Below, piece by piece: positions 8,014-61,224 of a stretch of 64,000 nt of DNA; position 1 is the first letter of the stretch; each line of letters starts with the position of its first letter. The position numbers were made by a program, and so were the translations under genes. The stretch is from Omphiscola glabra (lineage: Eukaryota > Mollusca > Gastropoda > Lymnaeidae): positions 4,543,284-4,607,283 of the forward strand of contig OZ024808.1 in the NCBI GenBank assembly GCA_964017045.1, in the 5' to 3' direction. The notes beneath the pieces were generated by a model. The model worked only from the letters and a program-made list of their open reading frames with translations. It made no database searches and had not been told where the DNA came from.

Positions 8014-11000
8014 CTATGAGAAGAAAACATAAACATATGGTTATATAACTAAGTGCAAACAAAATGTCAACAAAAACATAAAATATGTGATATATGTTTT
8101 GATCTCACATAAAATATGTCACATATGTTTTGATCTCACATAAAATATGTCACATATGTTTTGATCTCACATAAAATATGTCACATATGTTTTGATCTCA
8201 CATAAAATATGTCACATATGTTTTGATCTCACATAAAATATGTCACATATGTTTTGATCTCACATAAAATATGTCACATATGTTTTGATCTCACATAAAA
8301 TATGTCACATATGTTTTGATCTCACATAAAATATGTCACATATGTTTTGATCTCACATAAAATATGTCACATATGTTTTGATCTCACATAAAATATGTCA
8401 CATATGTTTTGATCTCACATAAAATATGTCACATATGTTTTGATCTCACATAAAATATGTCACATATGTTTTGATCATAAATAAAATATTTAATGAATGC
8501 ATAAATAAAACAATTCTTTTTACAAATAAAGAATATTATGTTTGAACATACGAGAACATACGAGAACATACGAGAACATACGAGAACATATATGGATGGG
8601 GATGGTAAGATATAGATAACTTATATTTTCATATATTTAAAAAGTTAGATAGTTTTATAGATTATTTTGTCTGTCAACATGGCGGCATAGTCTGGTGTCC
8701 TAAATATTGGGATTTGTATTAAAACAATGAAACACACAAAATCCCAGTCTGTGTCTTCGTACAACCAACTAGTGACTATACCAGAAATGCCTCGTGTGAT
8801 GTACGTTAATGAACACATTATCATCTGTTGGAAATAGAAGCACCCCCCCCCCCCCTTGTGGTATGGCTGAGTGGTTAGACAAAAACTAAATCTGAAATTA
8901 AATGAATGAAAGATTCGATGCCATCATGAAGAAGTGTCTTTTTATTGTACGCATGAATGAATGCATGATTCTATGACATCAGGAAGAAGTGTCTTTTTAT
9001 TGTACGCATGAATGAATGCAAGATTCTATGACATCAGGAAGAAGTGTCTTTTTATTGTAATCATGAAGAGCTCAAATAATATGAAACTATTTAGCTCTGA
9101 AAAGATAGTTTTAATTCCATTAAGATTGAAATGCCATCATTTTTGACGTGGCAGTGTATGACACGGAACAAAGCGTAAGACAATCGTGAATTTGACCACT
9201 AGGGCAAGGTACAACTACTTTCTGTACAGCCACCGCGACCATGGTTTTAGATATAAGCAAGATCACAAATTAATTTGTGCTTTTTTGTAGACGTTAAATA
9301 CTACATCTTCCCGGAACATGCCACGAGCTAAATTCCCAACTAGGAAATGTTGTGTGCGCTGGAGTAACACTAACATCTGTATCAATATAGTAGTCTTACC
9401 GCAATGCACTCATGTCTTTAAAGAAAAGATTGAACGATACAACAGTATCAAATGAACTGTTATAAAACACTTTATAATATCGTAGTAAATATCCTGTAAT
9501 GTTCTTTCCTTACTTGAACACCACAGTGGCCATCGAATAATTTAATAAATCAACAGATAATTTTAATTGCCATGTTTTATAGCTCGCGTATCTCAGATAG
9601 ATTCAAAGAGAACGAATGTATAATGAAATGTTGTGGGATAAACTCACCAACATAAAACTGTTTCATGATCAAACATTATTAAAAGAATTATCGCTCGATT
9701 GAATAACCGATTGCTAGTTGAGTAATTGTGTCATAACCTCTACCGCATCATCATCATAGAATCTTTATTGCTAGTTGAGTAATTGTGTCATAACCTCTAC
9801 CGCATCATCATCATAGAATCTTTATTGCTAGTTAAGTCATAACCTGTATAATCTAGAGATATCAAAAATTGTTGAAAGGCAGGACCTGAATTTCTTGTAT
9901 GTAATTTTGTATTGTTGCATTTTGTATTTTTATAGCACTTCGAGTTTTAATTAGGGATGAAGCGTGTTTTGTAAATGAATTTATTTTTATTATTATTATT
10001 AAATATTTAAAACTGTTGGTCACTCACAGACACGGCTACGATAACATGAACTTTGGACTTTGACATGGAAAAAGCAAAGGGATGTTGCAATTATGACAAC
10101 TGTAAATAGTGGATCAAAAGAGGGGAAGAAATTGAAGAGAAAAAAGACTTTGGAGGAAGAGAATCCTGGACGCTGGATGACACGTCCAAAGGAAATATCC
10201 AGATTACCATGTATACCAAGAAATGGGAGGTAATGAGCTCAGCCCAGTGAGACAAAATAACTTTTTAGGGAAACTTGCAAATGAAGCAGAGACTTGAAAA
10301 AAAAGGACAACAAGAAAATATAAATGACAACAGCTGAAAGAACACAATAAACAAATCTAGGGCATTCTATTCAAAGCAGAGAATTGTGCCCCCTCCCCTC
10401 CTCCCCCGGGCAGAGAAGGCTGAAAGAAAGCCTGCTTATGACATTGGAGTGACAGCTTATGACATTGGAGTGACAGCTTATGACATTGGAGTGACAGCTT
10501 ATGACATTGGAGTGACATCTTATGACATTGGAGTGACAGCTTATGACATTGGAGTGACAGCTTATGACATTGGAGTGACAGCTTATGACATTGGAGTGAC
10601 AGCTTATGACATTGGAGTGACAGTACCAGGTCGTTCGGCGCTGGGGATGGCTTTGTAATGTCATAAGATTAGCAGAGGTCAGACTTCCTCACATAAATCA
10701 CTTATAATGAAACCATGGAAGCCCTAAAGAAACTTGGAGCATAAAAATACAGAATGCTCTGTAGATAGGAATCTGAGCGTGCAGACAGGCGATAGAAAGG
10801 GTTGATAATTCTTGACCGTTAATTTAAGCTTGCATCAATGGCCAAGCGACGACTGAAAGAAATATGAAGAATATCTGTCAACATTCACGTCACCAACAGT
10901 TTGTATGACGTTTGTTGTAAATAACTCACCAGTATGTCTTGTTGTAAATAACTCACCAGTATGTCTTGTTGTAAATAACTCACCAGTATGTCTTGTTGTA

Positions 11001-14000
11001 AAAAACTCACCAGTATGTCTTGTTGTAAATAACTCACCAGTATGTCTTGTTGTAAATAACTCACCAGTATGTCTTGTTGTAAATAACTCACCAGTATGTC
11101 TTGTTGTAAATAACTCACCAGTATGTCTTGTTGTAAATAACTCACCAGTATGTTTTGTTGTAAATAACTCACCAGTATGTTTTGTTGTAAATAACTCACC
11201 AGTATGTTTTGTTGTAAATAACTCACCAGTATGTCTTGTTGTAAATAACTCACCAGTATGTCTTGTTGTAAATAACTCACCAGTATGTCTTGTTGTAAAT
11301 AACTCACCAGTATGTCTTGTTGTAAATAACTCACCAGTATGTTTTGTTGTAAATAACTCACCAGTATGTCTTGTCGTAAATAACTCACCAGTATGTTTTG
11401 TTGTAAATAACTCACCAGTATGTCTTGTTGGCACAGAAAGATCTTCCTTTAAACTCATTGATGTACATGGCCTATGAAAACAATTTAATATTGAATGTCA
11501 CAAATGGATGGCATCTGGTTTTTGAATTTGAGGCTTAATTTGGATTTGTTTTTTTTAAAAATTAGAACAAGTTTAGATTTGATCATTATGGTTTAGATTA
11601 CGTCATGAACAATTGTGGCACTAAAACATTTAAATGATTAAGATATAAAATGACAGCTATACATTTTGTTGTTGATGAAGATCGAACATGTCATTTTAAA
11701 ATGACAAACTCTTATTAGTTAACCTAAAAATTGTTATAGCATTTTGAACAAATTATTATCAAAACTACACAAAAAATAATTTTTAAAAAAACTCATATAA
11801 ACCATCACAAAACTTTTATATAAACCATCACAAAAACCTTCATATAAACCATCACAAAAACCTTTATATAAACCATCACAAAAACCTTCATATAAACCAT
11901 CACAAAAACCTTTATATAAACCATCACAAAAACCTTCATATAAACCATCACAAAAACCTTTATATAAACCATCACAAAAACCTTCATATAAACCATCACA
12001 AAAACCTTCATATAAACCATCACAAAAACCTTCATATAAACCATCACAAAACTTTTATATAAACCATCACAAAACTTTTATATAAACCATCACAAAAACC
12101 TTCATATAAACCATCACAAAAACCTTCATATAAACCATCACAAAAACCTTCATATAAACCATCACAAAAACCTTCATATAAACCATCACAAAAACCTTTA
12201 TATAAACCATCACAAAAACCTTTATATAAACCATCACAAAAACCTTTATATAAACCATCACAAAAACCTTCATATAAACCATCACAAAAACAGAAATCTA
12301 GACATCTTAACTTGCAATCATTTTTTTTCTTTAATAATAAAAGTATTAAAAGTATGTATGATGAGACGTAAAGTCAATCACGAATGAAGCACATCGTAAG
12401 GAGGCACATACTCCAATCCCCAGTTGGTGATACAACTAAACAGCTTTTCCAAGTCCGAATCATCTGCCATGAGAGCCAAATTATTTTTAGTAACCATTTT
12501 TAACGATGCAAGAACCGGTACTTACCTTCAAAGCGTACTTATAGAAGCTGAGGTACTGTGCCCAGTTCAACCATGGTCCTATAGAATCAAAGTTGATCAG
12601 GAATCCCGCAAACAACTGTGTGCAAAAAACAACATTCAGGTCTAGTTGTGATAAGTGACAACCAACTCAAAGAAATAAATCACTAAAGCATTGAAACAAA
12701 TTTTTTTTTTTAAAGCCTCAAGCCAGACATGTCCATAGCGTTGACATACATTTAAATGACGTCACGTATAATGATTGACACATCAACATGGGCAAGAACC
12801 GTGTTCCTGTTTTGGGGACTGAAATGTTTAGGAATCCCAAAAAACTAAATTTCTCTGATAAGTTTGCAGCGTCAAATAGATGTGCTCATTTCTGTTTCAA
12901 CTTATCAGTTGGTGCCTGTACACTCACAGTTTGTACCAGTACTCTCACAGTGTGTACCTGTACTCTCACAGTTTGTACCTGTACTCTCACAGTCTGTACA
13001 TGTACTCTCACAATTTATACCTGTGCTCTCACAGTTTGTACATGTACTCTCACAGTCCTCATGACTGTGTCAATTTCTTGTTCTCATGATTATTCCTGAC
13101 CCGGGTGGAGGGGGGAGAGTAAGTATACTTAAATAGTCTATAGGTGACACCATCGAGTGTGCCAGTGGTTTGGCTCATGGGCTGGACAATGATGTTAAGT
13201 ACCTCTGTATCCTGGGCCTCACCTTCCTTTGACCACCCAAGTTCTGGCACAGAGCACTCGACTAGACAATGAAACAGTATTTATTGTGCCAGGGAGCTTT
13301 ATATTATGTTTGTTGTGACAAAGTGGATGGAGCCATTTTCTTGATAATGTAGCTGTTCACCATATTGTGCATCTCCCTTTGACGGTGGTGTTGCAACAAG
13401 AGATGGTTGTGTCAGGGATTCAGTCTTCTTTGTATTCAAACCGGAACTCATTCGAGCATTAAAACGAGTGTCAGTACTGCGTGATTTGGGAGGGGCTGAG
13501 ATAGGGGTCAGCACTACAAGATATGGGAGGGGCCTATAAAGAGGTCAGCACTGTTTGATGAGAGAGGGCCTCATGAAGGGGTCAGCACTACAAGATGTGG
13601 GAGGGCCTCATGAAGGCGTCAGCACTACAAGATGTGGGAGGGCCTCATGAAGGAGTCAGCACTACAAGATGTGGGAGGGCCTCATGAAGGAGTCAGCACT
13701 GTTTGATGTGGGAGGGCCTCATGAAGGGGTCATCACTACAAGATGTGGGAGTTCCTCATGAAGGGGTCAGCACTACAAGATGTGGGAGGGCCTCATGAAG
13801 GAGTCAGCACTACAAGATGTGGGATGGCCTTATGAAGGGGTCAGCACTGTTTGATGTGTGAGGGCCTCCTGAAAGGGTCAGCACTACAAGATGTGGGAGG
13901 GCCTCATGAAGGCGACAGCACTACAAGATGTGGGAGGACCTTATGAAGAGTTCACCACTACAAAATGTGGGAGGGCCTCATGAAGGGGTCATCACTACAA

Positions 14001-17000
14001 GATGTGGGAGGGCCTTATGAAGAGTTCAGCACTACAAGATGTGGGAGGGCCTCATGAAGGGGTCAGCACTACAAGATGTGGGAGGGCCTTATGAAGAGTT
14101 CAGCACTACAAAATGTGGGAGGGCCTCATGAAGGGGTCAGCACTACAAGATCGTGCAGGGCCTCATGAAGTGTTCAGCACTACAAGATGTGGGAGGGCCT
14201 CATGAAGGGGTCAGCACTACAAGATGTGGGAGGGCCTTATGAAGAGTTCAGCACTACAAAATGTGGGAGGGCCTCATGAAGGGGTCAGCACTACAAGATC
14301 GTGCAGGGCCTCATGAAGTGTTCAGCACTACAAGATGTGGGAGGACCTTATGAAGAGTTCACCACTACAAAATGTGGGAGGGCCTCATGAAGGGGTCATC
14401 ACTACAAGATGTGGGAGGGCCTTATGAAGAGTTCACCACTACAAAATGTGGGAGGGCCTTATGAAGGGGTCAGCACTACAAGATGTGGGAGGGCCTTATG
14501 AAGTGTTCAGCACTACAAAAAGTGGGAGGGCCTTATGAAGAGTTCAGCACTACAAGTTGTGGGAGAGCCCCATTAGGGGGTCAGCACTACAAGATGTGAG
14601 AGGGCCTTACGAAGGGGTCAGCACTACAAGATGTGGGAGGGCCCCATGAAGGTCTCAGAACTACAAGATGTGGGAGGGCCTCATGAAGGTCTCAGCACTA
14701 CAAGATGTGAGGGGGCCTCATGAATGTCTCAACACTACCAGATGACTAACAAAGCCTTGCTATGGCTAACCATTATTTCCTCTTACCATCGTGACCGTGT
14801 ACCAAAGGGCTAACAGGAGCTTTGCTACGGCTAACACGCCAACTGACGCGCTGATGAGGAAAGCCACGCTTGCAGCTGTCATCGTGGTGCAGAACAGACA
14901 CAGGGTGAACTTGTAGAAGTGGTCACCACCATCGTTGAGACCTGGGTTACAAGGCAAACAAACAATAACAACGTTTTACTCTGTTGAAATCTTAGGCTAG
15001 AAACACAACAAAATAACTCTGTTTAATTCTTGTAGTCTTACCGTAATATTTCTCTTTGCACGAACTTCAGATGTGACATCTACTTATGTCTATTGGCGTG
15101 TTTCAGGGGATTGCGCAACTGCTAACAGTCATTTGCTATTGGCTAGTTCGGGCACTTATCATTTGATCGACAATTGCGTTAAGGGTCAGGGCGAAAATCA
15201 AAACTTTGCGTACCCCCACCCCCCAAACTGTTATAAAAATAATGCACTTCAATAATATCTTTTATTTTTAATTTTAGGATCATGAAATTCATTACATTGG
15301 ACAGCAGTCTAGACATTGGACAGCAGTCTAGACATTGGCCAGGAGTCTAGACATTGGCCAGCAGTCTAGACATTGGACAGCAGTCTAGACATTGGTCAAC
15401 AGTCTAGACATTGGACAGCAGTCTAGAAATTGGACATCAGTCTAGAGATTGGACAGCAGTCTAGACATTGGACAGCAGTCTAGTCATTGGACAGCAGTCT
15501 AGATATTTGACAGCAGTCTAATATATCCTAATCTTATTCTTATCCTGTATTTAGGATCTAGCTTCCGGTTACATTTCTCGAAAAGGATTTAAGATTTTCT
15601 AAAATAGTAGACTGTGTTGACATGTTGACATGTTGATATTGTGTTAAGTCAAGGGAAAGTGGTGACGATTTCTTCCTTGGGTTAGAGAAATTCATTTTTT
15701 TTTTTTTTGACGGAGAGTATTGACATTTTTGTCTGTATATTAATAGTTCTTTATGAATACACTACTATTTACCATATGAAATATCACTTGCAAATATCCT
15801 TTGTCAATGTTAAGTCAGGGATCCCCCTGGGCTCGGTGCTAGGCCCCTGTTTGTTCCTAGCATATATCAATGACCTACCCGAGAAATTGACATCCCACGC
15901 AAGACTGTTCGCAGATGACACAGCCGTGTATAGGACGATCACCAACAGATCTGACCAGGACCAGCTACAAGAGGATCTCAATCGATTAGCTGAGTGGGAG
16001 GCGAGCTGGGACATGGAATTTCATCCAGCCAAGTGCCAGACACTGTCAGTCTCTAGAAGTTGTACTCCTCTACGCTACCACTATGAATTGCATGGTCATT
16101 TGCTTGAGTCAGTTTCCTCCGTAAGGTACCTGGGTGTTACCATTCAGAGAGAGGTCCGCTGGGACGAGCATATTAACAATGTGTGCAACCAGGCAAACAA
16201 GACCCTGGGGTTCTTAAAGCGTAATCTAAAGATCAGCAACTCTGGTGTGAAAGAAAGAGCCTATAAAGCCTTTGTCCGGCCGCTTTTAGATTATGCATCT
16301 TCGGTCTGGGACCATTCACTCAGAAGAGCATCGACAGGTTGGAGGCAGTACAGCGACGGGCAGCACGCTTTGTCCTGAACCGCTACAGGAATACCTCTAG
16401 TGTTGGCAGCATGCTGGAAACACTGGGCTGGTCACTATTGGAGGAACGACGACGACTATCCAGGCTCTCCATGATTTACAAGATAAATAATGGGCTAGTC
16501 CACTGCTCTGGCATTAAACAGAAACTCGTCCCTCTCCCCCATAGACAACGACGAGGCCACGACAGGCAGTTCCGGCTCATACCAGCGAGAAGCCAGTATA
16601 GGAACTGCTTATTCCTACCAAAGACAATCAGGGACTGGAACAAGATTCCAAAAGGAACAGTTGAGGCGACAACACTTGACTCATTTGCGTCTATTACCTC
16701 AGGCCTTCCAACCCCTAGTGCATGATACCCTCAAACAGTTAACTCTTGTAACCAGTGAAATATCCTCATCAACACCAGGCACAGAAACATTGCAAATCCC
16801 ATCTACATTCATAGGAGCCATAATGATCAATAAATTGATCGTGGGCCCTTAATATATAGAAGAAAAAGAAATAATTCCGTCCTAAATATAGACACATAAA
16901 TACGTACAACGTGAGGATATCCTTCAAAAAATGACAGATGATCAAAAAGAATTGACTTAAGGGCGTCAACGTAAAGAGAACCCAATGACTTAATAAAAAC

Positions 17001-20000
17001 GAAAGATTCATATTTTGCACATATGAAAATATATTTTAAATAACAGCAGTTAGGAGCCACCAAAACTGTTAGTAAGTTATAACACATTAGACTTACCAAC
17101 GGCAAAGTAGATAATGGCAGACGAGATGATTAAAGGAAACAGTCTCAGAGGTACTATGTCAAAAATAACTTTGACCAGGAAGTAGACAGAGACTCTGTAG
17201 AATCCACTGATACTTTCATGCCTGTGGATATAGCCATTGACATAGACATAGTGTGATGGACAGAATATTTTCACGGCTGTGGACATAGTGAGATGGACAC
17301 AATACTTTCATGCCTGTAGACATAGTGAGATGGACACAATGCTTTCATGCCTGTAGACATAGAGAGATGGACACAATGCTTTCATGGCTGTGGACATAGT
17401 GAGATGGACACAATACTTTCATGGCTGTGGACATATTGAGATGGACACAATACTTTCATGGCCGTGGACATAGTGAGATCGACACAATACTTTCATGGCT
17501 GTGGACATAGTGAGATGGACACAATACTTTCATGGCTGTGGACATAGTGAGATGGACACAATGCTTTCATGGCTGTGGACATAGTGAGATGGACACAATA
17601 CTTTCATGGCTGTAGACATAGTGAGATGGACACAATACTTTCATGGCTGTGGACATATTGAGATGGATACAATACTTTCATGGCTGTGGACATAGTGAGA
17701 TGGACCCAATACTTTCATACATGTGGACTTAGTGAGCTTGACATAATACTTTCATGCCGTTGACATAGTGAGATGGACAAATTATCTTCATAGCTGTGGA
17801 CATAGTGAGATTGTCACAGATGAAGATTCTTTAAAATAATGTTTTTAAAAAAAAACTAATTCATTGAAACACTAAGGCTATTACTAGTTTTAAACACATG
17901 TAATAGTCAGCAGTCCTAAAATGTAAATAGTCTATCCACAAGCACACAGGTGTATACTAAAAACATTTATTCTGAACACATCAAATTCAACCGTCTGTCA
18001 ACAAACACTAAGATTTCCCCTCAAACAAACATCCATAAGCCTGCCGTACACCAAAATTCTAATTTCTTTTCATTAAAATCCAATTTATCCAATATATTCA
18101 TCCACGTATGCAGTGGTTTCCATAATTTTCGATTCTAAGCCCCTTTGATAATTCCATGTTACCCCAAGACTCCCTATGTTAACATCTAACAAGTACTCGG
18201 CCAAATAACCAATCTCCTTCTTGTTTCAAGGTTTTTTGATAAATTAAGTGAACAAAAACTTAAGTGAACAAATAAATGAACGTGTAAGCAAATATTTCAA
18301 AGTTGCGCTCTTTCAGAATGAATTGAAAATGGAAATATAATTATTAAAAGGGGTGAATAACCCTCGGCACGTGCTTGAGAAAGCTATTGCTCCCCAAAGG
18401 GAACCACTGACCAGATGGACACAGTAAATCTTAAAATTCTTACATGAAATTTTTTCGTTCATCTACGAACACTTGTAGGGCTGTTAAATTGATGAACAGT
18501 TGTTTAAAGATGGCTAGGAACAAAACACCCGATCTGATGAAATAGTCAACACATTGAAACAGATGAAAAGGATTATTAAAACAACTTATTGAGTAGAAGA
18601 CAAAGATGAAAAAAAAATAAAAAAATATGCTCACAAATGTGAACCGCTCTAAAGAATTTAACCCAAAAATGGGTCCAATAGAATTTAAAATTAAATGTGT
18701 GCATCAAACATTATATTAGAGAATAATTTATAATTTGCTAAATGATAATTGTACCAAATTTCTTATTATAGAGCATATCAAAGCATTCGTATAGCAAACA
18801 TATCATTTGTAAAAATGTTGATATTTCTTTGCTAACAAAAGTTAATGGAGCAGGCACCAACATGTGCAGTACTAAAACTCCGGCATGATGAACGTGTTAG
18901 TCAATGGGAGCAGTGTTCCAACTGTGACGTAATACTAGTATTGAAATGAATGATACACCTATGCCTCGCTATACGGCCGCTCTTTATACGGCATTTCGCT
19001 TTACGGCCAACTTTAAATTATGGCACTTTTTCGGTTTACGGCCCACGATGTTTCATTATACGGCCAATAGATACCCTCTCTTTAGTTTCAGCTTCTCCTC
19101 TTAGGCGGCTCTGCTTTAGTAGTCTGCCTTATTTCCTGTGCTATCCCACCTTATTCATATCCTGTGACTCAGTAAGTTGACGTGTTTGTTTCTGTTTTGT
19201 TTGTTTGGATTCATTGGTGAATTTTATTTTATGTATAAATATGTGCATATGATTTCTTTTGTTTCTTAATTTATATGTTTATTTTTTTTTAAATTTCTAT
19301 TTACTATTACAATGTTTTGTACTTTAATTTTTATAGGAAATGAAAAGAATAAAATGATTTATGAACTAACGACTATATTATTTTATACAAAAATTGGAAC
19401 AGATCAAATTAAATGTGTATGTGTTTATATCAAAATTATTGATTCATTATACGGGTTTTCGCTTTACGACCAACTTTCCCGGAACGTATCTAGGCCGTAA
19501 AGCGAGGTATGGGTGTATTTTGGGCAACTGTAATTGGATTTGGAGCGGTGCTCAGAGCTCTGGAGCAGGTTTCTTTGCCCGTCACTAGAATGGAAATGGA
19601 GCTGTTACAAATGTATTACTGCTCCAGGCTCATTATATATATATATATAAACATATATATATATATATATATATAACTTCGTTTTGTATGTGGTTAAATG
19701 CGCAGATTAATGACCTATTCTTCTACCAGGGTGCTGGTTGGCGTAGTAGTCTAACCTGAGTCAATCCCAAACTACTAGCGTTCAATCACCAGACAGGCAA
19801 GCAATGCACCAGCACCCCGGGTGGATGGGACACGTTAGCCCGGGATTGCAAATCGGAAAAGCGATCCCGGAAATGGTGTACCGTAGATGTTATGAAAATC
19901 CCGACAACTCCTGCGTCGTAGAATACATAAATGGCGCAGTGAAACACATACACACACACATACTACTGGTCATCTACTGCATCTATTTCCAGGCGTCTTA

Positions 20001-53100: not shown

Positions 53101-56100
53101 TGAATTGGGCAATATGAGTGTCTTAAAATGCTTAAATTTACAGTTTATAGGCACATAATAATAGATTTATAAATTTTTAGTAAATGAATTTTATAAAAAA
53201 TTGGTAAACATAAAGTAGGCCAATTATCATTTAGTTAATCCAACAAATATTACGTTCAAATAAATCAGGATTTAGTTCTTGGGATAAAGCTGGTTTTCGA
53301 TTCATCTTCTTTTTTAAAAAAAAAGGTTTTATAGTATTTCATTCAGCTTATTCATCTTAAAAAGATAATTGTAAAGAGATTATTGAATTCATCATTCGTT
53401 ACCATTCTATTGTCTTTAAGCTGTCAAACAGATAACTCTTTCATTTTGCGTTATTAATTAAATAAAGTATGGTCAGATTATCGTCCCTGTGGATCCCAAA
53501 ATTTTTCATTAGCAGATAGAATCAATGAAATGGTCCTTTAGTTTGTTGTTTTTTTTAACAAGGGTTGCTGATCGCCGAATTAAAAAGTCTAAATCGGTTT
53601 CTACCACATATTAGCCGCCCACGAACTTTGTCTGCGAATCATCTTATTTGGTTAAACATCAACTGTACGTCATCGGTCCAGTCTGCTACTGCAGCGAGCC
53701 ATTACGAACAGAAGAAACGGTTACTAGAGACCTATTGCTCCTTGATGTCTTCGCCCTAATTGCCAGCTCAGAACTAACAATACTTAATCGCTTTCTAAGG
53801 CCTGAGACAACTACGGCCTGAGACAACCAAGGCCTGAGACAACTAAGGCCCGAGACGACTGCGGCCTCACCAGCGAACTCATAGGAGACATGTGATGGGA
53901 CACAAGCTGGCGAGGCAGACTCACTGATGGGACACAAGCTGGCGAGGCAGACTCACTGATGGAGCACAAGCTGGCGAGGCAGACTCACTGATGGGACACA
54001 AGCTGGCGAGGCAGACTCACTGATGGAGCACAAGCTGGCGAGGCAGACTCACTGATGGAGCACAAGCTGGCGAGGCAGACTCACTGATGGGACACAAGCT
54101 GGCGAGGCAGACTCACTGATGGGACACAAGCTGGCGAGGCAGACTCACTGATGGAGCACAAGCTGGCGAGGCAGACTCACTGATGGGACACAAGCTGGCG
54201 AGGCAGACTGACTTTTTGTTGGAGCACAAGCTGACGAGGCAGACACTCTGATGGAGCACAAGCTGGCGAGGCAGACTGACTGTTGGAGCACAAGCTGGCA
54301 AGGCAGACTGACTGTTGGATCACAAGCTGGCGAGGCAGACTGACTGTTGGAGCAAAAGCTGGCGAGGCAGACTGACTGTTGGATCACAAGCTGGCGAGGC
54401 AGACTGACTGTTGGAGCACAAGCTGGCGAGGCAGACTGACTGTTGGGACACAAGCTGGCGAGGCAGACTCACTGATGAACGCATCAAACTTACTAGACAT
54501 GCCCAAAGAAAGCGCACAGCAAGTAACCCTAGGATCACTTCTATGACCCCCCAGGACACGTGTGTCCTCCATGCGGGCACAAAAAGGTATGTGACGCCAC
54601 TTTCAATGTTTGAGAACCTCTGGTTTACACTTTTATAATATTATAATGAAAACCAATAATTTTACTGGGAAACTAATTTATAAATTAATATAGATGTAAG
54701 TAGATCGAACCTTTTGTTCCAAATTGAATTTCTAAATCCTTCCACCAACTTTTCATGTTGACTTTGTGGAGCTGTCAAAAAATAAAATAAAAGATTCATG
54801 TTTCTATCGAAAACGTTTAAGTCAAGTTAGAAAGGGAGTTGAGCGGTTTTCTCAAATCTTTGATCGAGATTATTGCACTGTTGCGTTACATGAATACACA
54901 ATAATACCGTAACTACCGGTCACTTTGCAAATTGGAGATAAAGAAACATTTTATTTCAAAATGATAACTTAACCCTAAGCACCTAATAACAATAAATTTC
55001 GCCATAAGATTTTAAAAAAAAACTATTTTACACTCAAAATGAAAAAGGTCATAATGCGACACGACGGTAACTGGCATCTGGTAAAGGAAACGCATTAAAA
55101 TACAGAATATTTTTAAAATTTTCAAATGTGTAACCAAGACAATTAAAACACAAGACAATTCAAATGGAAGACAATCAAAATATAAGACAATTAAACTCGT
55201 TTTGGTTGGTGTAATGGATGTCCGAAAATGAACCATTACTTGCGGGAGCGCGTTATTTGGGATGTTACTTTGGATGAGTTCTGGTATTTGGCATTGTGTT
55301 TTAAAGTTATATATGCCTGAATATAATGTTAACTCGATCTTTTTTTTTTTTTTATTATTTGATTCATTTGTTTGGTAGTCGTTAACTTTACTGCGTGTGG
55401 CTACCCAGGGAAAAGTCCTAAATAAATCAGTACTGTACTGGTAAAATCAGTGCACATTGTCACCTTGAGCTCAATGGACTTATCACAAAGACGTTTCAAA
55501 ACCTTTGGAAGGTATTCTACTCACTACTGTAAGCTCATAATTCTACTCACTAATTGTAGCTCCTATTTCTAATTACTACTGTAAGCTCAAATTTCTACTC
55601 ACTAATAAAAATTTATTTTTCCGCTCACTACTGTAAGCTCATATTTCTACTCACTGCTGTAAGCTCATATTTCTACTTACTACTGTAAGCTCATATTTCT
55701 ACTTACTACTGTAAGCTCATATTTCTATTCAGTACTGTAAGCTCATATTTCTGTTCTCTAATGTAAGCTCATATGTCTACTCACTACTGTAAGCTCATAT
55801 TTCTACTCACTAATGTAAGCTCATATTTCCTTTTCACTATTGTAAGCTAATAATTCCACTCACTAATTGTAGCTCATATTTCTGTTCACTACTGTAAGCT
55901 CATATTTCTGTTCACTACTGTAAGCTCATATTTCTGTTCACTACTGTAAGCTCATATTTCTGTTCACTACTGTAAGCTCATATTTCTGTTCACTAATGTA
56001 AGCTCATATTTCTGTTCACTACTGTAAGCTCATATTTCTGTTCACTAATGTAAGCTCATATTTCTGTTCACTACTGTAAGCTCATATTTCTGTTCACTAC

Positions 56101-59100
56101 TGTAAGCTCATATTTCTGTTCACTAATGTAAGCTCATATTTCTGTTCACTACTGTAAGCTCATATTTCTGTTCACTACTGTAAGCTCATATTTCTGTTCA
56201 CTACTGTAAGCTCATATTTCTGTTCACTACTGTAAGCTCATATTTCTGTTCACTACTGTAAGCTCATATTTCTGTTCACTAATGTAAGCTCATATTTCTG
56301 TTCACTACTGTAACCTCATATTTCTGTTCACTAATGTAAGCTCATATGACTACTCACTTGTGTAAGCTAACATTTGTCCTCACCAATGTAAGCTCATATT
56401 TCTGCTCACTACTATTGTCTACTCACTATTGTATCGTTAGGTTCTTTGGATTATTATTGCCCATCGAGAAATGATATTAAAATTAATCAGTATTTCATGT
56501 AGTAATAATAAGCAACTTACTGTCCAAGTCACATTCCACTTCTTTTTCAACAGTCAGACCATTAGTGGCGAATGTCATTGGGTCGCCATTAATGACATCC
56601 AGAAAGAAATCAGGTGGGTTGTTGTGTTCCTGACAGACGTAGCCTAAGATAAGAGACATTACAAGAGACATTACAGGAGACATTACAGGAGACATTACGG
56701 GAGACATTACGGGAGACATTACAGGGACATTACAGGAGACATTACAGGAGACATTACAGGAGACATTACAGGAGACATTACGGGAGACATTACAGGAGAC
56801 ATTACGGGAGACATTAAAGGAGACATTACAGGAGACATTACAGGAGACATTACAGGAGAAATATCAGGAGACATTACAGGAGACTATACAGGAGACATTA
56901 CAGGAGACATTACAGGAGACATTACAGGAGACATTACAGGAGACATTACAGGAGAAATATCAGGAGACATTACAGGAGACTATACAGGAGACATTACAGG
57001 AGACATTACAGGAGACATTAAAGGAGACATTACGAAAGACATTACATTTTAGAGCATGCTGTTTAGTTAATTATTTTTAAATAGAGAATTTAGCTGACGC
57101 ATCGTTTGAATATATCTTGATCGACCTTTCCTTTATGCCTAACTCCTGCGTCTCTTATTTTCTCACTTATTTGATATAAATATGATTCTAAGACAATACT
57201 AACTCTATGAAGACTATACTAACCCTGTGAAGACTATACTAACCCTGTGAAGACTATACTAACTCTGTGAAGACTATACTAACCTCTGTGAAGACTATAC
57301 TAACCCTGTGAAGACTATACTAACTCTGTGAAGACTATACTAACCCTGTGAGGACTATACTAACCCTGTGAAGACTATACTAACCCTGTGAAGACTATAC
57401 TAACCCTGTGAAGACTATACTAACCCTGTGAAGACTATACTAACCCTGTGAAGACTATACTAACTCTGTGAAGACTATACTAACCCTGTGAAGACTATAC
57501 TAACCTTGTGAAGAGAACAACTCCAAAGCTTCCTCTGATGGTCCGTGATACACGGTGTGGCCTTGAGACAAGAGCATCAAACTGTCAAACAGGCGATAGA
57601 TGGAGTAACGGGGTTGGTGAATGGAGAAGATGATGGTCCTTCCTCTTCGAGACAGCCTGAAGAAAATCACAGTTAAAGAAAAACTGATAAATAACTAATT
57701 TAGAAAATTTGGAGAATAGAAATGCAACCTGAGACAAAGACATTTAGGGGTCATGGTACGGTTCTAGACCTAGATCAAGTTGAACACATTCCCTCATATA
57801 GTATTGCCCTATATGTTCTCGGTACAGTACTTGACCCAGGTCAAGATGAACCCAGTCCCATGTACACTATACTTAAAAATGGTAGCGTTCAGTCAAAACA
57901 AACTAACCATTGTTTACATCAAATCAATGTTTCATAACGTCCATCTCCGTCTAAGAATTTAACATTATCAAATGTTAACATGTAGGGCTAAACAGAATGA
58001 TGTTTTTTAAAAAATCTATATTTTTATATAATTTTCTTTAAAGATCAATTGGATTTTCGTATTCATCTATCTGGAACAGTGATCTCCAAACTATTTTTAG
58101 TACGTTGTCTCGAACTGTACACATTTTGTATACAGTTATGATGTTGACTGAGCCTGCGTGTTAAAAAAATACACCATCCATTACTCTCTCAGGCGTGCAG
58201 ATTGAGTTTGCTCAAACAGTGCGAAACCTGGGTGTCTACTTAGACATAACACTAACTATGGAAAATCACATTAACATGATTTGCAAGGCGATTTTTCTAG
58301 AGCTGCGCAGAATTATTCATATCAGACCTTTCTTAACTTTGAATGCATCAAAGAGGCTGATGTCTGCATTTGTTCTATCACGCATGGACTACAGCAATGC
58401 TCTTATGGTGGGTCTTCCAGCTACGCTCCTGGATAAAATTCAAAAAGCACAGAATAATGCGGCTCGAATTGTTCTTTGTAAACGCACATTCGACCATGCT
58501 AAAACTCTTCTGAGAGAACTGCGTTGGCTGCCGGTCCGCGCTCGCATAGAGTACAAAATTGCAACTCTGTGCTACCGCTGCTTGCATGACCTCGCGCCGT
58601 CCTATCTCCAAGCGCTCATGACGCCTTATATACCCACTAGACAACTCCGCTCATCCGATAGTGGCAAACTCTCGATACCGCGTGTTCGCCTTGAGACTTA
58701 CGGAAAGCGCACGTTTGCATTTGCTGGCCCGACCATTTGGAACACCCTTCCTGACGCTCTCAGACACAGCCAGACGCTGGAGTCCTTCAAGACAAATTTA
58801 AAAACTCATCTATTTCGCAAACACCTTATGGGGTGAAGTTGTCTACCATCTTTTCCAGCTAGTTATTAACTCCCAGATTTGTTTTTGTACCGCGCTTCGA
58901 GCCTTTGGGGATGAAGCGTGATTTTTCAAATGAACTTTATTATTATTATTATTATTTAAAAGTTAAATCAAATACATTTTATAATACATCAATGCATTAA
59001 GAACTATCCTGTGCCCTTATATGTACCATCCCCCCAAAGCAGTGGTTCTCAACCTTCTTCATGCCGCGACCTTTAATACAGCTCCTCGTATTCTGGCGAC

Positions 59101-61114
59101 CCCCAACCACAAAATTATTTTCGTTGCTGCTTCATAACTGTAGAGAATATGTGTTTTCCGATGGTCTTAAGCGACCCCTGTGAAAGGGTCGTTCGACCCC
59201 CAAAGGAGTCGCGACCCACAGGTTGAGAACCGCTGCCCCAAAGATGTATTGATATGCTTATTTCGATTTGAGGACCACTGATCTGACGACCATTGCAAAC
59301 CTTTTCAAAAGCTTCATAACTGTGTTCGCTGTGTGCGCATCAAGGCCGGTAGTCGGCTCATCTAAGAATAGCACGGCAGGGGAGATTATGAGCTCCATGC
59401 CAATGTTGATTCTTTTCTTCTCTCCCCCTGACACTCCTCTAATGAATTCGTTTCCAACCTGGGCAGAGGATGACATGACATAACTATAATATGAACCATT
59501 GGATATAAATATGATATGAAAGCAATAGACAACATCACATAAATATGAACTGAAAGCATTGGATAACATGACATAAATATGAGATAAAAACGTTGGATAA
59601 CATGACATAAATATGAGATGAAAGTATTTATCATTTAAAGACTACCCATCGGCATGATACCAGTAATTGCCGAAACAAAATAGAGCTGTCGACTTCTGTT
59701 TCTAGAAATAAATGCTGGCTCGAGTCACCAATTCAAATGGGGTTATCCGAAATAAATTTTAATTAAAAAAATTATAAAAATACTAATTGAAAGTAAACAT
59801 TTTAAAACGTTTTGGTTTTATTTAGTGTCATTTATATTTGTTACTTAATAAGTTCATGTCTCAATCATTAAATAATAAATGATTTGAATTTTTCAGTTTG
59901 AACAGAATTTTGTTCTTACGCACTTCCGTTCTTACACACTTCTATTCTTAAAAACACTTCCGTTCTTACGCACTTCCGTTCTTACACACTTCCATTCTTA
60001 AAAACACTTCCGTTCTTAAACACTTCCGTTCTTACACACTTCCGTTCTTACACACTTCCGTTCTTAAACACTTCCGTTCTTAAACACTTCCTTTTTTATT
60101 AAACACTTCCGTTCTTAAACACTTCCGTTCTTAAACACTTCCGTTCTTTCACACTTCCGTTCTTACACACTTCCGTTCTTTCACACTTCCGTTCTTACAC
60201 ACTTCCGTTCTTACACACTTCCGTTCTTACACACTTCCGTTCTTAAACACTTCCGTTCTTACACACTTCCGTTCTTAAACACTTCCGTTCTTAAACACTT
60301 CCGTTCTTAAACACTTCCGTTCTTTCACACTTCCGTTCTTACACACTTCCGTTCTTTCACACTTCCGTTCTTACACACTTCCGTTCTTACACACTTCCGT
60401 TCTTAAACACTTCCGTTCTTACACACTTCCGTTCTTAAACACTTCCGTTCTTACACACTTCCGTTCTTAAACACTTCCGTTCTTAAACACTTCCGTTCTT
60501 AAACACTTCCGTTCTTTCACACTTCCGTTCTTAAACACTTTCGTTCTTACACACTTCGTTCTTACACACTTCCGTTCTTACACACTTCCGTTCTTAAACA
60601 CTTCCGTTCTTACACACTTCCGTTCTTTCACACTTCCGTTCTTAAATACTTCCGTTCGAACAGATATCCCCATCTCTCTCGCCTAAGTCTCAGACTTAAT
60701 TTATAGTTTTACAAAAAATTAAATTAGAAACAAAAGAAATCGAGCAAACTTTTGTTCGTTTGGCATTCCAACAGATTTCCATTTATTTCCACTTTTCTCA
60801 ATGGCACTTCTTAGATTTAACAACATTTATATAATAAAAACATTTGACCAAAGTTCAGTTCGATCCAATGTCCGTCGATCAATTTATTTTCTGCCGACCA
60901 AATTTCTTTCAAACAAATTTCCGGTAACCATTTCTCGTAGCAACACTATATTTCATCTGACCTTTGTTTCTGCACACCTCTCCAGACCAAGTTCTTTAAT
61001 AACCTGGTCGATCCTCTCGTTTCTCTCACCGGCCCTGACCGACGAGGGCAGTCTGAGGGCAGCGGAGAAGGCTAAATTCTCTCGGACAGACAGCGTTCCC
61101 ATCACAACGTCTTC
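44019..61114 (-). CDS. ABCG2: ABCG2-like half ABC transporter, copy B (exons 4-17, 5' part outside window)
   Basis: Fourteen minus-strand exons encode 523 residues and a stop. They match copy A residues 120-642 exon for exon with identical lengths (153, 158, 152, 123, 61, 106, 66, 86, 90, 125, 155, 90, 56, 151). Signature VSGGE, Walker B VLFLDEP, the D-loop and H-loop (SIHQP) are intact, as are the Arg482-equivalent (GFYRVSVYF), the sequon NET and two loop cysteines. The NBD exons and exon 17 are the most similar to A; membrane exons 12-14 have diverged, so the copies may differ in substrate. Exons 1-3 with Walker A lie right of the window, across intron 3 and its 32-bp satellite. No frame disruption is seen. 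Gene B is upstream of gene A in the same orientation, which fits a tandem duplication. Confidence 0.94.
44480..44637. repeat. 54-bp repeat containing exon 16 donor region of copy B, about 3 copies
   Basis: Units on the minus strand contain CCTG|GTCAGTTGG, matching the exon 16 end CCTG|GTAAGTTGG, and also GTGAGTTACTGTAAATCCTG, which recalls the 27-bp unit at the same donor of copy A. Confidence 0.85.
44637..44692 (-). CDS. ABCG2: Copy B exon 16 (third extracellular loop)
   Basis: A 56-bp exon reading ALYIIEFKGRLFCANETA, with sequon NET and one cysteine. Acceptor TCCCTAG, donor CTG|GTAAGT. Three 54-bp repeats containing a donor-like CCTG|GTCAGT follow. Confidence 0.93.
44693..45398. other. Intron 15 of copy B, no minisatellite
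   Basis: Unique sequence. The first 60 bp resemble the start of the homologous intron of A weakly. This is one of the few introns without an array. Confidence 0.5.
45399..45488 (-). CDS. ABCG2: Copy B exon 15 (TM5 and re-entrant loop)
   Basis: A 90-bp exon reading [20 protein letters not shown] then YLSLFKYSLN. Acceptor CTTGCCAG, donor AAT|GTAAGT. Confidence 0.95.
45541..46975. repeat. Minisatellite in intron 14 of B, two 24-bp unit types, about 60 copies
   Basis: Type 1 GTTAGAGATACAACTGACAA plus CAAT, with C/G and CAGACAAC variants. Type 2 GTACAATGTACAACAGACAA plus CAAT. The left half shows a six-unit (144 bp) higher-order pattern; the right half alternates types as 48-bp dimers. It lacks stops in several frames, so long spurious frames up to 286 codons occur. 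Confidence 0.96.
47140..47790 (-). mobile_element. RTE-like LINE, reverse transcriptase C-terminus
   Basis: Reads TISAQLGTNINRSKTKIIKI, GKALEEVDAFTYLDSTID, SEADVRAGIVKARSAFVTLK, KTILLYGTEAWRTT and ITKKLQTFINTCL, then KILNIKWPNIITNKDL. These blocks are typical of RTE-clade elements. Broken frames; lies in intron 14 of copy B. A G run of about 17 at 47746 marks the edge of recognisable sequence. Confidence 0.9.
47806..47955. repeat. Minisatellite, 37-bp unit, 4 copies
   Basis: Unit GTGAGTCTACTTGACTATAC plus CACCCTGCATGTCATCT in intron 14 of copy B. Confidence 0.95.
48140..48620. repeat. 27-bp array containing exon 14 donor of copy B, about 17 copies
   Basis: On the minus strand the unit is TGTTATGTGCTCATGATG|GT plus AGGACTG: 18 exon bases and the donor. 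The first unit is the real exon end. Unit length is nine codons, so read-through stays in frame as VGLCYVLMM repeats until a TAA near 48393. Two units lost nine-codon length and the GT (reading ILRLYVLMM). Confidence 0.95.
48609..48763 (-). CDS. ABCG2: Copy B exon 14 (TM4 to start of TM5)
   Basis: A 155-bp exon reading GLNQGAENFFLFTLCLFSTT, VAAACLCFLISSSVR and LLLAMCYVLMM. Acceptor TCCTAG. The donor ATG|GTAGGA at 48608 gives the same length as copy A. The last 18 exon bases plus nine intron bases repeat downstream as an in-frame 27-bp array, so several further identical donors could be used. Confidence 0.92.
48820..48960 (-). mobile_element. LINE/SINE 3' tail
   Basis: On the minus strand, GTACCGCGCTATATAAAAC followed by (TAC)n and (TAA)n runs, resembling CR1/L2-like 3' tails. 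Only the tail is present. Confidence 0.5.
48961..49424. other. Rest of intron 13 of copy B
   Basis: AT-rich with a G run of 14 at about 49057. Nothing else is recognised. Confidence 0.4.
49425..49560. repeat. Repeat containing exon 13 donor region of copy B, 3 copies of 35-48 bp
   Basis: Each ends CTATTGACCTACCGACAG or close variants: on the minus strand CTGTCG|GTAGGTCAATAG, the end of exon 13 with a donor. The real donor is GTCG|... TGTCG|GTAAGTC at 49552. Confidence 0.82.
49553..49677 (-). CDS. ABCG2: Copy B exon 13 (TM3)
   Basis: A 125-bp exon reading [20 protein letters not shown] then DIIPLRMIPAVILSVIVYF. It keeps the Arg482-equivalent. Acceptor GTCCCCAG, donor G|GTAAGT. The donor region is repeated about three times downstream (49425-49552). 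Confidence 0.95.
49959..50048 (-). CDS. ABCG2: Copy B exon 12 (TM2)
   Basis: A 90-bp exon reading SGVLFFLIINQLFINITAVE then VFLQERKLFM. It is closer to the human sequence than copy A's exon. Acceptor TTGATCAG, donor AT|GTAGGT. Confidence 0.93.
50120..50580. repeat. Minisatellite in intron 11 of B, 20-bp unit, about 23 copies
   Basis: Unit GAAAGCCAGACTTCCAATCA with GCTAGTC and TTTAAATCA variants. Variant order suggests a 60-bp or larger higher-order unit. Confidence 0.95.
50581..51722. other. Rest of intron 11 of copy B
   Basis: AT-rich; short CA and TA/GA microsatellites at 51250-51310 and 51585-51625. No gene seen. Confidence 0.5.
51723..51808 (-). CDS. ABCG2: Copy B exon 11 (TM1)
   Basis: An 86-bp exon reading VVTALVFAILISAIYWQLG then DDPSHAFKD. 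Acceptor TTCCCCAG, donor AG|GTCAGC. Confidence 0.94.
52041..52106 (-). CDS. ABCG2: Copy B exon 10 (connecting helix)
   Basis: A 66-bp exon reading LVVVAKRTMINMIRNPQTSI then LN. Acceptor CGTTTCAG, donor AAC|GTAAGA. Its phase-0 donor settled the equivalent choice in copy A. Confidence 0.93.
52450..52615. repeat. Minisatellite in intron 9 of B, about 32-bp unit, 5 copies
   Basis: Unit CCAAATACCACTGACTAATT plus CACTTATCACT, imperfect. Confidence 0.88.
52765..52870 (-). CDS. ABCG2: Copy B exon 9 (linker)
   Basis: A 106-bp exon reading LQEEATTILNKFEAHGGLKG and ending YVTSFGHQ. Acceptor GTTAAG, donor CAA|GTAAGC. Confidence 0.92.
52871..53790. other. Part of intron 8 of copy B
   Basis: Unique AT-rich sequence without a supported gene. 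Confidence 0.4.
53795..54475. repeat. Two adjoining minisatellites in intron 8 of B (16 bp and 32 bp)
   Basis: About four copies of GGCCTGAGACAACTAC, then about 18 copies of GCACAAGCTGGCGAGGCAGA plus CTCACTGATGGA. The second half uses a CTGACTGTTGG variant, so the array is subdivided. Confidence 0.95.
54540..54640. mobile_element. Possible hAT terminal fragment
   Basis: TTTGAGAACCTCTGG near 54610 resembles an inverted hAT terminus. No partner end was identified. Confidence 0.3.
54711..54771 (-). CDS. ABCG2: Copy B exon 8 (linker)
   Basis: A 61-bp exon reading TPQSQHEKLVEGFRNSIWNK. The frame is set by exons 7 and 9; the other frames do not join. Acceptor TTGACAG, donor AG|GTTCGA. Confidence 0.9.
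54772..55505. other. Part of intron 7 of copy B
   Basis: AT-rich sequence; nothing recognised. Confidence 0.4.
55510..56420. repeat. Minisatellite in intron 7 of B, 26-bp unit, about 34 copies
   Basis: Unit GTAAGCTCATATTTCTGTTC plus ACTACT. The centre is uniform and both flanks are degenerate, as expected for an array growing from the middle. Confidence 0.95.
56521..56643 (-). CDS. ABCG2: Copy B exon 7
   Basis: A 123-bp exon reading [20 protein letters not shown], then DPMTFATNGLTVEKEVECDL. Acceptor ATCTTAG, donor A|GTAAGT. A 12-bp array begins within ten bases of the acceptor. Confidence 0.94.
56645..57045. repeat. 12-bp array abutting exon 7 acceptor of copy B, about 33 copies
   Basis: Unit GGAGACATTACA with a few CGGGAG and AAATATCA variants. 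It begins within ten bases of the acceptor CTTAG, so it lies in the branch-point region. Confidence 0.95.
57200..57510. repeat. 20-bp array containing exon 6 donor of copy B, about 16 copies
   Basis: On the minus strand the unit is TCTTCACAGG|GTTAGTATAG; the real junction is TCTTCACAAG|GTTAGTATAG. Every unit keeps GTTAGT, so about 15 decoy donors follow the true one. Confidence 0.95.
57505..57656 (-). CDS. ABCG2: Copy B exon 6 (H-loop)
   Basis: A 152-bp exon with [20 protein letters not shown] and [19 protein letters not shown]. Acceptor TTCTTCAG, donor CACAAG|GTTAGT. The donor with its last exon bases is the unit of the 20-bp array downstream. Confidence 0.96.
58150..58960 (+). mobile_element. 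CR1/L2-like LINE 3' end with ATT tail
   Basis: An open frame of 213 codons reads VRNLGVYLDITLTMENHINM, LSRMDYSNALMVGLPATLL, IQKAQNNAARIVL, LRWLPVRARIEYKIATLCY and FAGPTIWNTLPDALR, then FKTNLKTHLFRKH and a stop at 58836. The 3' UTR has CGCGCTTCGAGCC, GGGATGAAGCGTG and an (ATT)n tail. The whole domain end is intact, so it is a fairly recent 5'-truncated insertion in intron 5 of copy B, antisense to the gene. Confidence 0.92.
59040..59235. mobile_element. Complete hAT MITE with 8-bp target duplication
   Basis: Terminal inverted repeats CAGTGGTTCTCAACCT and, inverted, CAGCGGTTCTCAACCT; subterminal GCGACC blocks. Flanked by the exact 8-bp repeat CCCCAAAG (59032-59039 and 59236-59243). 196 bp, no coding capacity. 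Located 65 bp downstream of exon 5's donor in copy B. Confidence 0.92.
59301..59458 (-). CDS. ABCG2: Copy B exon 5 (signature, Walker B)
   Basis: A 158-bp exon with [37 protein letters not shown] and LLKR. Acceptor CTGCCCAG, donor AG|GTTTGC. A hAT MITE sits 65 bp past the donor and a 32-bp repeat starts within about 20 bp of the acceptor. Confidence 0.96.
59480..59632. repeat. Tandem repeat near exon 5 acceptor of copy B, about 32-bp unit, 4 copies
   Basis: Unit GAAAGCATTGGATAACATGA plus CATAAATATGA; the first copies begin in the acceptor region (ATGACATGACATAAC at 59469). Confidence 0.88.
59920..60655. repeat. Minisatellite in intron 4 of B, 16-bp unit, about 45 copies
   Basis: Unit CACTTCCGTTCTTACA with AAA and TCA endings. 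Repeated order of these endings around 60100-60320 and 60320-60540 points to a higher-order unit of roughly 200 bp. Confidence 0.95.
60962..61114 (-). CDS. ABCG2: Copy B exon 4
   Basis: A 153-bp exon reading [20 protein letters not shown] and ending LGLERCAETK. Acceptor TTGCGCAG, donor AAG|GTCAGA. Confidence 0.95.
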
Positions 61115-61224
61115 CTGCGCAAAAACAAAATAGTTTTTCGTTAAGAAATGAAGGGCGTGGTCCCCGAGAACAGTCGGCGTCAATGACTTCTGTTAAGTCA
61201 AGTCTCATTTTAATAAGTCATTTT

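Follow-up and report, generated by a model that had tools for sequence, protein, structure and literature searches.

What leads minisatellites to sit on the exon-intron junctions of a gene: does splice-site sequence itself provoke them, or do duplications fall there by accident and survive? The question is raised by two ABCG2-like genes of a lymnaeid snail, in which the unit of several tandem arrays contains an exon border. The window analysed here is a stretch of 64,000 nucleotides from Omphiscola glabra (assembly GCA_964017045.1, OZ024808.1:4,543,284-4,607,283, forward strand). It holds two intact genes on the minus strand, A and B, whose exons we name by gene and number (A16 is exon 16 of gene A).

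7863..36170, minus strand: ABCG2-like gene A, 17 coding exons (36170 to 7863), complete open frame
44019..61114, minus strand: ABCG2-like gene B, exons 4-17 (61114 to 44019), open frame

Exons 1-3 of gene B lie beyond the window edge, past a 32-bp array. All 59 junctions of the two gene models carry GT/AG, and both reading frames are open. A second spliced aligner agreed on the internal junctions of gene A and gave identical ones for gene B, where 12 of 14 exons were the same and the other two differed at their outer ends only. The proteins have the layout of ABCG2-like half transporters, an NBD followed by a membrane domain, and their closest solved relative is ABCG2 (best PDB match of a 185-aa NBD piece: 6eti_A, E 3e-77). 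The closest proteins are from Lymnaea stagnalis, with 81% and 76% identity over the full length.

A junction was counted as repeated when its 16-mer (8 exon and 8 intron bases) found a match of at least 12/16 in the adjacent intron. By this measure 8 of the 59 junctions are repeated, six donors (A3, A16, B6, B13, B14, B16) and two acceptors (A7, A13), so that 5′ and 3′ boundaries are both affected, and the list is exactly that of the eight junction-spanning arrays named in an earlier note on this DNA. Shuffled introns give a chance similarity of 0.0076 per junction, or about 0.45 over all 59, and the repetition of junctions in A and B is confirmed. Two further donor-spanning duplications, at A7 and A14, had been missed by the earlier note. 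Unit length at the junctions of the window is roughly 20-66 bp.

33482..33541, minus strand: A exon 3 donor, 37-bp unit (16 exon and 21 intron bases), about 1.6 copies; unit common to paralogs B, C and D
27563..27834, minus strand: A exon 7 acceptor, 55-bp unit, 5 copies, 44 exon bases per unit
27425..27536, minus strand: A exon 7 donor, exon 27491-27536 copied at intron 27425-27470, 42/46 identical, lag 66 bp
17222..17818, minus strand: A exon 13 acceptor, 37-bp array, unit of acceptor and about 11 exon bases, exon-side copy diverged
14736..14835, minus strand: A exon 14 donor, exon 14800-14835 (36 bases) copied at 14736-14770, decayed, lag about 65
10912..11430, minus strand: A exon 16 donor, 27-bp unit, 19 copies, each with donor CTG/GTGAGT
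57190..57514, minus strand: B exon 6 donor, 20-bp unit (10 exon and 10 intron bases), 16 copies
49426..49557, minus strand: B exon 13 donor, 49-bp array, first lag 35, about 5 exon bases
48152..48628, minus strand: B exon 14 donor, 27-bp unit, 18 copies, 17-20 exon bases
44481..44640, minus strand: B exon 16 donor, 54-bp unit, 3 copies, 4 exon bases

Tandem Repeats Finder (TRF) alone returns five arrays with at least 4 exon bases: the A7 acceptor (44), and the B14 (20), A16 (15), B6 (10) and B16 (4) donors. The A3 donor duplication, at about 1.6 copies, is not listed there even at score 30, and the TRF arrays at B13 and A13 begin 12 and 23 bases off because the exon-side copy is truncated or diverged. 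Three more arrays had been described as starting at or close to an acceptor; this holds for A5 (gap 1) and B7 (gap 9), but B5 is 46 bases off by TRF. The B5 array comes nearer only when a degenerate partial unit, judged by eye, is included.

32578..32950, minus strand: array before the A exon 5 acceptor, stops 1 base short of it; not exon-spanning (TRF)
56653..57046, minus strand: 12-bp array before the B exon 7 acceptor, stops 9 bases short of it; not exon-spanning (TRF)
59505..59628, minus strand: 34-bp array, 46 bases before the B exon 5 acceptor; not exon-spanning (TRF)

Within the junction arrays the splice signal is kept to varying degrees: all 19 A16 copies retain the donor, B14 copies do so in part, and A13 is mixed. 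In the two arrays compared for exon-edge and inner copies, the edge copy differs at A7 and equals the consensus at A16. Reading through the A16 array produced Pfam matches (Pro_CA and others), which we rejected as repeat artefacts, since no stretch passes alone.

The earlier note reasoned that exons make up under 10% of the locus, so that chance would rarely hit junctions so often. This is the wrong baseline, because a duplication straddling a junction spares the exon just as an intronic one does, and because arrays fill 47% of the intron bases of A and B. We replaced it with founder placement in introns and with tests of junctions against random intron points. In the uncollapsed sequence, 41% of points drawn at random from introns pass the 12/16 cut-off, compared with 8/59 junctions. 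With copy number collapsed to two units, 7 of 58 junctions reach 13/16 where 2.3 are expected (P 0.008), and at the 12/16 cut-off P is 0.064; with three units kept, 7 are found against 3.9 expected (P 0.09). Founder placement in the collapsed introns predicts 1.7 arrays, giving P 0.03 for the 5 strict arrays and 0.002 for 7 including those with a diverged edge, and weighting by GC raises the expectation to 2.2 (P 0.07 and 0.007, respectively). Taken singly at 13/16, gene A has 4/32 against 1.3 (P 0.04) and gene B 4/32 against 1.6 (P 0.08). These tests of excess in A and B rest on the same data that raised the idea. Block permutation within introns, with exon entry of 10, 20 or 30 bases allowed, gave means of 0.9, 2.0 and 3.0 and P values for at least 5 arrays of 0.001, 0.04 and 0.17; we give it little weight because the outcome depends on the entry allowed.

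The same measurements were made on paralogs of the same genome, for six ABCG2-like genes in all (A to F, with F partial), every one an ABCG2 relative. Genes A, B, C and D have 17 exons each, with exons 2-16 equal in length, and the models of A to E preserve open frames with the exon-edge copy as splice site; for the partial F model, 8 of 9 exons were counted, the last, which extends into an array where the stretch ends, being dropped. In C, D and E, 7 of 100 junctions are spanned against 6.2 expected (P 0.43), which is no excess, and gene E alone has 0 of 36. With F included, C to F have 8 of 114 against 8.97 expected from random intron points (P 0.68). Pooling A to E gives 15 of 164 against 9.1 (P 0.04), or against 13.1 with three units kept (P 0.33). 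Several paralogs have repeats at the exon 3 donor and at the exon 13 acceptor, so these counts are not independent events. From one paralog to the next, a given junction can carry different units: 55 bp in A and C and 58 bp in D at the exon 7 acceptor, 27 bp in A and 54 bp in B at the exon 16 donor, and, at the exon 14 donor, a 27-bp unit in B, a lag of 44 in C and of about 65 in A. Reading the A and C exon 14 repeats as one 44-bp unit was rejected on these lags. Array copy number also differs among the paralogs of this one assembly.

The most probable explanation, in our judgement, is that these are mirage-type minisatellites: duplications that straddled a junction by accident in a repeat-rich region, were nearly neutral, and grew as intronic arrays do. 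Short tandem duplications would arise throughout such a region, and some would cross an exon border by accident. A straddling duplication would leave an intact exon and splice site at the exon edge while its second copy goes into the intron, and splicing would presumably use the exon-edge copy. Being near neutral, the duplication could then expand as other arrays in introns do, through slippage or through unequal exchange. Arrays occupy 47% of intron bases in A and B and 22% of the remaining window, so the birth of repeats is general here and does not need splicing. Across the ten junction units the exon share is compatible with a uniform distribution (KS P 0.76), which is the expected outcome if duplications start anywhere. 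Neutrality towards splicing is an assumption, because the genuine sites have many decoys of equal score. The genuine donor is matched by 18 decoys at A16 and 11 at B14, and 7 AG sites at A7 and 12 at A13 score no more than 1 bit below the genuine acceptor. At B14 the inner donors 102, 129, 156 and 183 bases into the intron are in frame, ahead of a stop after 213, and their use would lengthen the protein by 34 to 61 hydrophobic residues. The nominal excess in A and B at 13/16 and the pooled A to E value (P 0.04) count against accidental placement. The suggestion that arrays persist because each copy restores a splice site is borne out in the sense of tolerance: the junction stays intact in the copy on the exon side, and junctions are affected about as often as intron points. 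Tolerance alone suffices to explain the junction arrays.

The earlier note had also proposed splice-site sequence as the starting point of slippage or unequal exchange. If splice-site sequence, or structures linked to splicing such as R-loops, seeded slippage, arrays should start more often at junctions, and the nominal excess in A and B fits this (5 or 7 arrays against a founder expectation of 1.7, and the 16-mer result at 13/16). However, C to F show none (8/114 against 9.0), and the claim of placement beyond chance mostly fails, a mild excess being left in A and B with copies collapsed. In A and B a local-alignment test found 3 of 29 donors and 1 of 29 acceptors against 4.9% of random points, which is not significant. 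The 31 array units away from junctions are no more donor-like than random intron (mean GC 0.37, against 0.35 in other intron). The window's bias towards donors (8/29 against 2/30 acceptors, P 0.04) was rejected, as it disappears in C to F (4 donors and 4 acceptors at 13/16). With the even exon share as well, seeding is unsupported and we regard it as improbable. Mobile elements that brought arrays and landed beside exons by chance have two interspersed repeat pairs of the window in their favour (4133-4557 with 13062-13544, and 16702-16848 with 31781-31972), one of which adjoins an array, and such an origin may hold for some intronic arrays. The units of the junction arrays, however, hold the host exon's own coding bases, so these arrays were made in place and a mobile origin is refuted for the eight of them; as a general account it is very improbable. 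False expansion during assembly is just as hard to credit. Arrays are difficult to assemble and copy numbers may be off, and one amphioxus counterpart was aberrantly assembled in a draft genome, according to the available text of PMC3087553; yet unit variants are interspersed along the snail arrays, like structures occur at other loci of the genome, separate paralogs have units in common, and the amphioxus cases are described as backed by RT-PCR and resequencing (PMC3087553, PMC3902484).

The exon 3 donor invites two other readings. Its 37-bp repeat is present in all four clustered paralogs (A to D), within a near-identical block of about 160 bp. Averaged over five pairs compared without gaps, the first 58 bases of intron 3 are 76% identical among these genes, where the other 15 donors give 31-46% and 16 acceptors 34-50%. 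A CAG/GT donor stands at +37 of the intron in A, B, C and D, its use is predicted to lead to a stop at residue 122-164, and gene F has a weaker 38-bp repeat (12/16) at the corresponding position. Some junction repeats might be kept for function, for example with regulated use of the +37 site as an alternative donor causing a frameshift and reducing the amount of protein made. We give this little probability: the C copy is degenerate (GTTTCA), a gapped alignment of the same five pairs weakens the contrast (0.83-0.88 against 0.10-0.84 at other donors), and third codon positions of exon 3 are 0.91 alike, where 14 other exons give 0.47-0.79, which suggests that gene conversion acted on the entire block and weakens the case for functional conservation of the intron 3 start. 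It is conceivable, though unlikely, that junction minisatellites are exchange points between the tandem paralogs, where conversion starts or ends; they would then keep exon 3 and about 45 intron bases (the block of about 160 bp) near-identical in four paralogs while other exons and introns are more diverged, and would pass coding variants between array and exon. Some array copies do hold coding states absent from their own exon. All four inner copies at A7 encode glutamine, as do B and five related proteins, where the exon itself has histidine, and all five CATGAAA-bearing copies in intron 12 of gene D match the exon 13 sequence of A and C and not that of D. Such states suggest either fossil copies of the exon or sequence exchange, and inner copies, as with the A7 glutamine, can act as fossils of an exon.

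Tandem genomic duplication across AG/GT, which carries splice signals along, is reportedly a known route of intron gain; the snail duplications also carry splice signals but have made no new intron, with the exon count the same in A to D. The closer parallel is amphioxus, where the available text of PMC3087553 and PMC3902484 describes "mirages", in which exon-intron boundaries of the Adh3, globin, TnC and PGBD5 genes are duplicated in tandem in minisatellite fashion, with units of 10 to about 160 bp at 5′ or 3′ boundaries, copies located in the intron, many but not all with AG/GT, and reports normal mRNA and length polymorphism. The snail arrays are the same phenomenon: their units take in bases from both sides of a real exon-intron boundary, both exon ends are affected, and the gene is otherwise intact. 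They differ in their gastropod host, in the many copies per junction (19 donors at A16, 35 acceptor copies at D exon 7), in having many junctions affected together within a single gene cluster, one unit being common to four paralogs, and in being known from the DNA of one assembly, whereas the amphioxus cases have the mRNA and polymorphism described there. In the available text on an abalone TSSK1-like gene (PMC6905558), a 27-bp minisatellite array of intron 3 resembles the snail arrays in unit length and copy-number range, but it is described as intronic and exon bases are not mentioned. For earthworm metallothionein, the available text (PMC12783039) likewise describes intronic minisatellites and does not mention boundary-spanning ones.

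Boundary-spanning minisatellites are hereby extended from amphioxus to a snail, and their tolerance is quantified, in that an exon border of these ABCG2-like genes is affected about as often as any intron point. The arrays also offer natural experiments for splice-site choice. The most extreme in the window is A16 with its 19 identical donors, and D exon 7 has 36 identical acceptor 22-mers, 35 exact copies and the genuine one downstream; at both, the gene models require the exon-edge site.

The analysis covered six related genes (one of them in part) in one assembly of 745 Mb and 37 contigs, on which the copy numbers rest and in which the window is C16:4543284-4607283. The minus strand of the window carries two ABCG2-like half-transporter genes; ABCG2 is the best PDB match of a 185-aa NBD piece from gene A, and Lymnaea stagnalis supplies the nearest proteins to gene A, at 81% and 76%, so the DNA comes from a lymnaeid snail. 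All 59 splice junctions of A and B have GT/AG and the frames are open, and a separate spliced aligner reproduced the manual internal junctions of both genes. Exons 1-3 of B were recovered from the DNA neighbouring the window. The six genes, with A and B in window positions and C and D in contig positions, are as follows.

Genes compared
36170 to 7863, minus strand: gene A, 17 coding exons
61114 to 44019, minus strand: gene B, exons 4-17 in the window
4637825-4621932, minus strand: paralog C, clustered, in neighbouring DNA
4514738-4537427, plus strand: paralog D, clustered, in neighbouring DNA
Contig C2: gene E, 19 exons
C16 near 1.81 Mb: gene F, partial

One Lymnaea stagnalis protein, P0001, is nearer to A over exons 4, 5, 7, 9 and 10; B is the nearer of the two for exon 8 and exons 11-17 (88-100% over B exons 11-17), with exon 6 equal for both and B exons 1-3 outside the comparison. 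Recombination in the gene or a fault in its model may account for this.

Repetition of splice junctions was scored independently of repeat-finder settings, by taking the 16-mer centred on each junction and matching it to the adjoining intron at lags of 10-120. At a match of at least 12/16, 8 of the 59 junctions of A and B recur in the adjacent intron, against 0.0076 per junction in shuffled introns, and these are exactly the eight at which an earlier note had described arrays with a junction in the unit. Three more arrays had been set no more than about 20 bases from an acceptor; TRF agrees for two (gaps of 1 and 9) and puts the third, at B exon 5, at a gap of 46. TRF itself gives five arrays with at least 4 exon bases, and in unit tables exon and intron bases repeat jointly at five junctions, named here by gene letter and coding exon.

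Arrays across junctions, from unit tables for A and B, with one from F
A16 donor: 19 copies, CTG/GTGAGT (slash at the junction) in all
B6 donor: 16 copies, 20 bp
B14 donor: 18 copies, 27 bp
B16 donor: 3 copies, 54 bp
A7 acceptor: 5 copies, 55 bp, 44 exon bases
C16:1814848-1815377: F exon 4 donor array, 27 bp, 20 copies, spanning the donor

Two further spanning duplications, at the donors of exons 7 and 14 of A, appear when exon ends are aligned to introns.

With the B gene body taken to the window end, 38 TRF arrays of score at least 50 cover 21,214 of the 44,789 intron bases in the two gene bodies, and 18 cover 3,492 of 15,710 bases in the rest of the window. In the raw sequence at 12/16, random intron points recur at 41%, exon-internal points at 2.8% and junctions at 14% (8/59); the question we set was how junctions and intron points compare in frequency once copy number is removed. 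Under a founder null, in which arrays are collapsed to one unit and the first duplication may fall anywhere not wholly exonic, the expectation is 1.7 arrays across a junction, or 1.1 to 1.4 with a minimum of 6 to 8 bases per side, so that P is 0.03 for the 5 observed strictly and 0.002 for 7 with A13 and B13; GC weighting raises the expectation to 2.2 and P to 0.07 and 0.007. In collapsed sequence at 13/16, 7/58 junctions recur against 2.3 expected from random intron points (P 0.008), with P 0.02-0.06 at thresholds of 12, 14 and 15, and with three units kept the count is 7 against 3.9 (P 0.09). A local-alignment version of the junction test on A and B gave no significant excess. All these window tests were run on the same data that raised the idea of seeding at junctions.

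Junction repeats are also carried by C, D and F, with a 57-bp unit in C at the donor of exon 4, the one spanned by the array in F, but none of the 36 junctions of gene E is repeated. Arrays cover only 16% of the introns of E, and by eye one lies near its exon 8 acceptor. At 13/16 the count in C, D and E is 7/100 junctions against 6.2 expected (P 0.43), and in C to F it is 8/114 (four donors and four acceptors) against 9.0 (P 0.68), so that neither the nominal excess nor the donor bias of the window is reproduced in C to F. On neither strand do the 31 non-junction array units resemble donors (mean percentile 0.48), and in ten duplications across junctions, part of them judged by eye, the exon share is compatible with a uniform spread (KS P 0.76). 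We conclude that junctions are struck at about the rate of introns in general and that duplications across them are tolerated; the proposal that junctions are hit more than chance is not supported, and its companion, tolerance, is. Some arrays are common to paralogs by descent or exchange, so the counts are not independent; this undermines an argument for excess more than one for its absence.

A duplication spanning a donor leaves its 5'-most copy at the exon, and one spanning an acceptor its 3'-most copy; with the exon-side copy used, the frames of the gene models are open. Of duplicated donors in vitro the intron-proximal one is often preferred, so that the choice of the exon-edge copy supposed here should not be taken for granted. 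On a simple matrix, with each genuine site omitted from its own scoring, 18 inner donors at A16 and 11 at B14 come within 1 bit of the genuine one, and the D exon 7 acceptor has 35 exact copies of a 22-mer. Splicing at an inner A16 donor would bring a stop in the second codon from the junction (TGG TGA). Reading through the B exon 14 donor (48609) to 48396 meets inner donors at +102, +129, +156 and +183, in frame and before any stop; splicing there would lengthen the protein by 34, 43, 52 or 61 residues, most of them hydrophobic.

The exon 7 acceptor arrays of A and C are similar (55 bp) and D has another unit (58 bp); the exon 14 donor repeats have a lag of about 65 in A (decayed), a lag of 44 in C and a unit of 27 in B; and the exon 16 donor units of A and B differ. 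Since units and lags differ in this way between paralogs, several junctions were probably struck more than once. At exon 7 of A, the four inner copies each encode glutamine, as do B and five related proteins, and the real exon has histidine; the intron copies apparently preserve an older exon state. In exon 13 of D the intron copies (5 with a CATGAAA core) read CATGAAAGTAT, as the exons of A and C do, and its own exon reads CATGAAAACAT. Because the D relatives P0002 to P0005 carry asparagine at that position (P0001 has threonine), sequence has probably passed there from one paralog to another or between the array and the exon, in one direction or the other.

The 37-bp exon 3 donor unit is common to A, B, C and D at about 1.6 to 4 copies, and F has a weaker 38-bp relative. 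Measured in steps of 20 bases, identity among paralogs ranges from 0.65 to 1.0 across exon 3 and intron 3 as far as about +45; the 20 bases upstream of the exon give 0.5-0.9, the 20 bases past +45 give 0.05-0.7, and values further out are lower. Ungapped identity over the first 58 bases of intron 3 is 76%, compared with 31-46% at the other donors, with weaker separation in gapped scores (0.83-0.88 against 0.10-0.84). Among exons 2-16, third-position identity is 0.91 in exon 3 and 0.47-0.79 in the remaining 14. Such a pattern would be expected after gene conversion of a single block, the alternative being that strong constraint has kept the block.

In anatomy the snail arrays match the 'mirages' of amphioxus, which two papers (PMC3087553, PMC3902484) describe as tandem repeats that cross exon-intron boundaries at either end, with AG/GT in many, not all, copies; the normal mRNA and length instability are reported there for amphioxus. 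Exon number is equal in A, B, C and D, which means no intron gain so far in this cluster. Among the matches listed in the open-licence PMC literature, as excerpted, none reports boundary-spanning arrays in molluscs; one excerpt describes gastropod haemocyanin genes with large, highly repetitive introns (PMC7931591).

Two interspersed repeat pairs were found by similar translations, 4133-4557 with 13062-13544, whose second copy adjoins a 37-bp array (13483-14744), and 16702-16848 with 31781-31972. Two open fragments on the minus strand, 42886-43218 and 47206-47640, are 31% alike over 90 aa, with sub-threshold DUF6451 matches, and we take them to resemble remains of reverse-transcriptase elements. 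A 19-bp array of about 290 copies (21545-27058) makes up most of A intron 8, and the 32-bp array at 61227-64000, in B intron 3, extends past the window to about 231 copies over 7.4 kb (C16:4604510-4611891), 99% alike.
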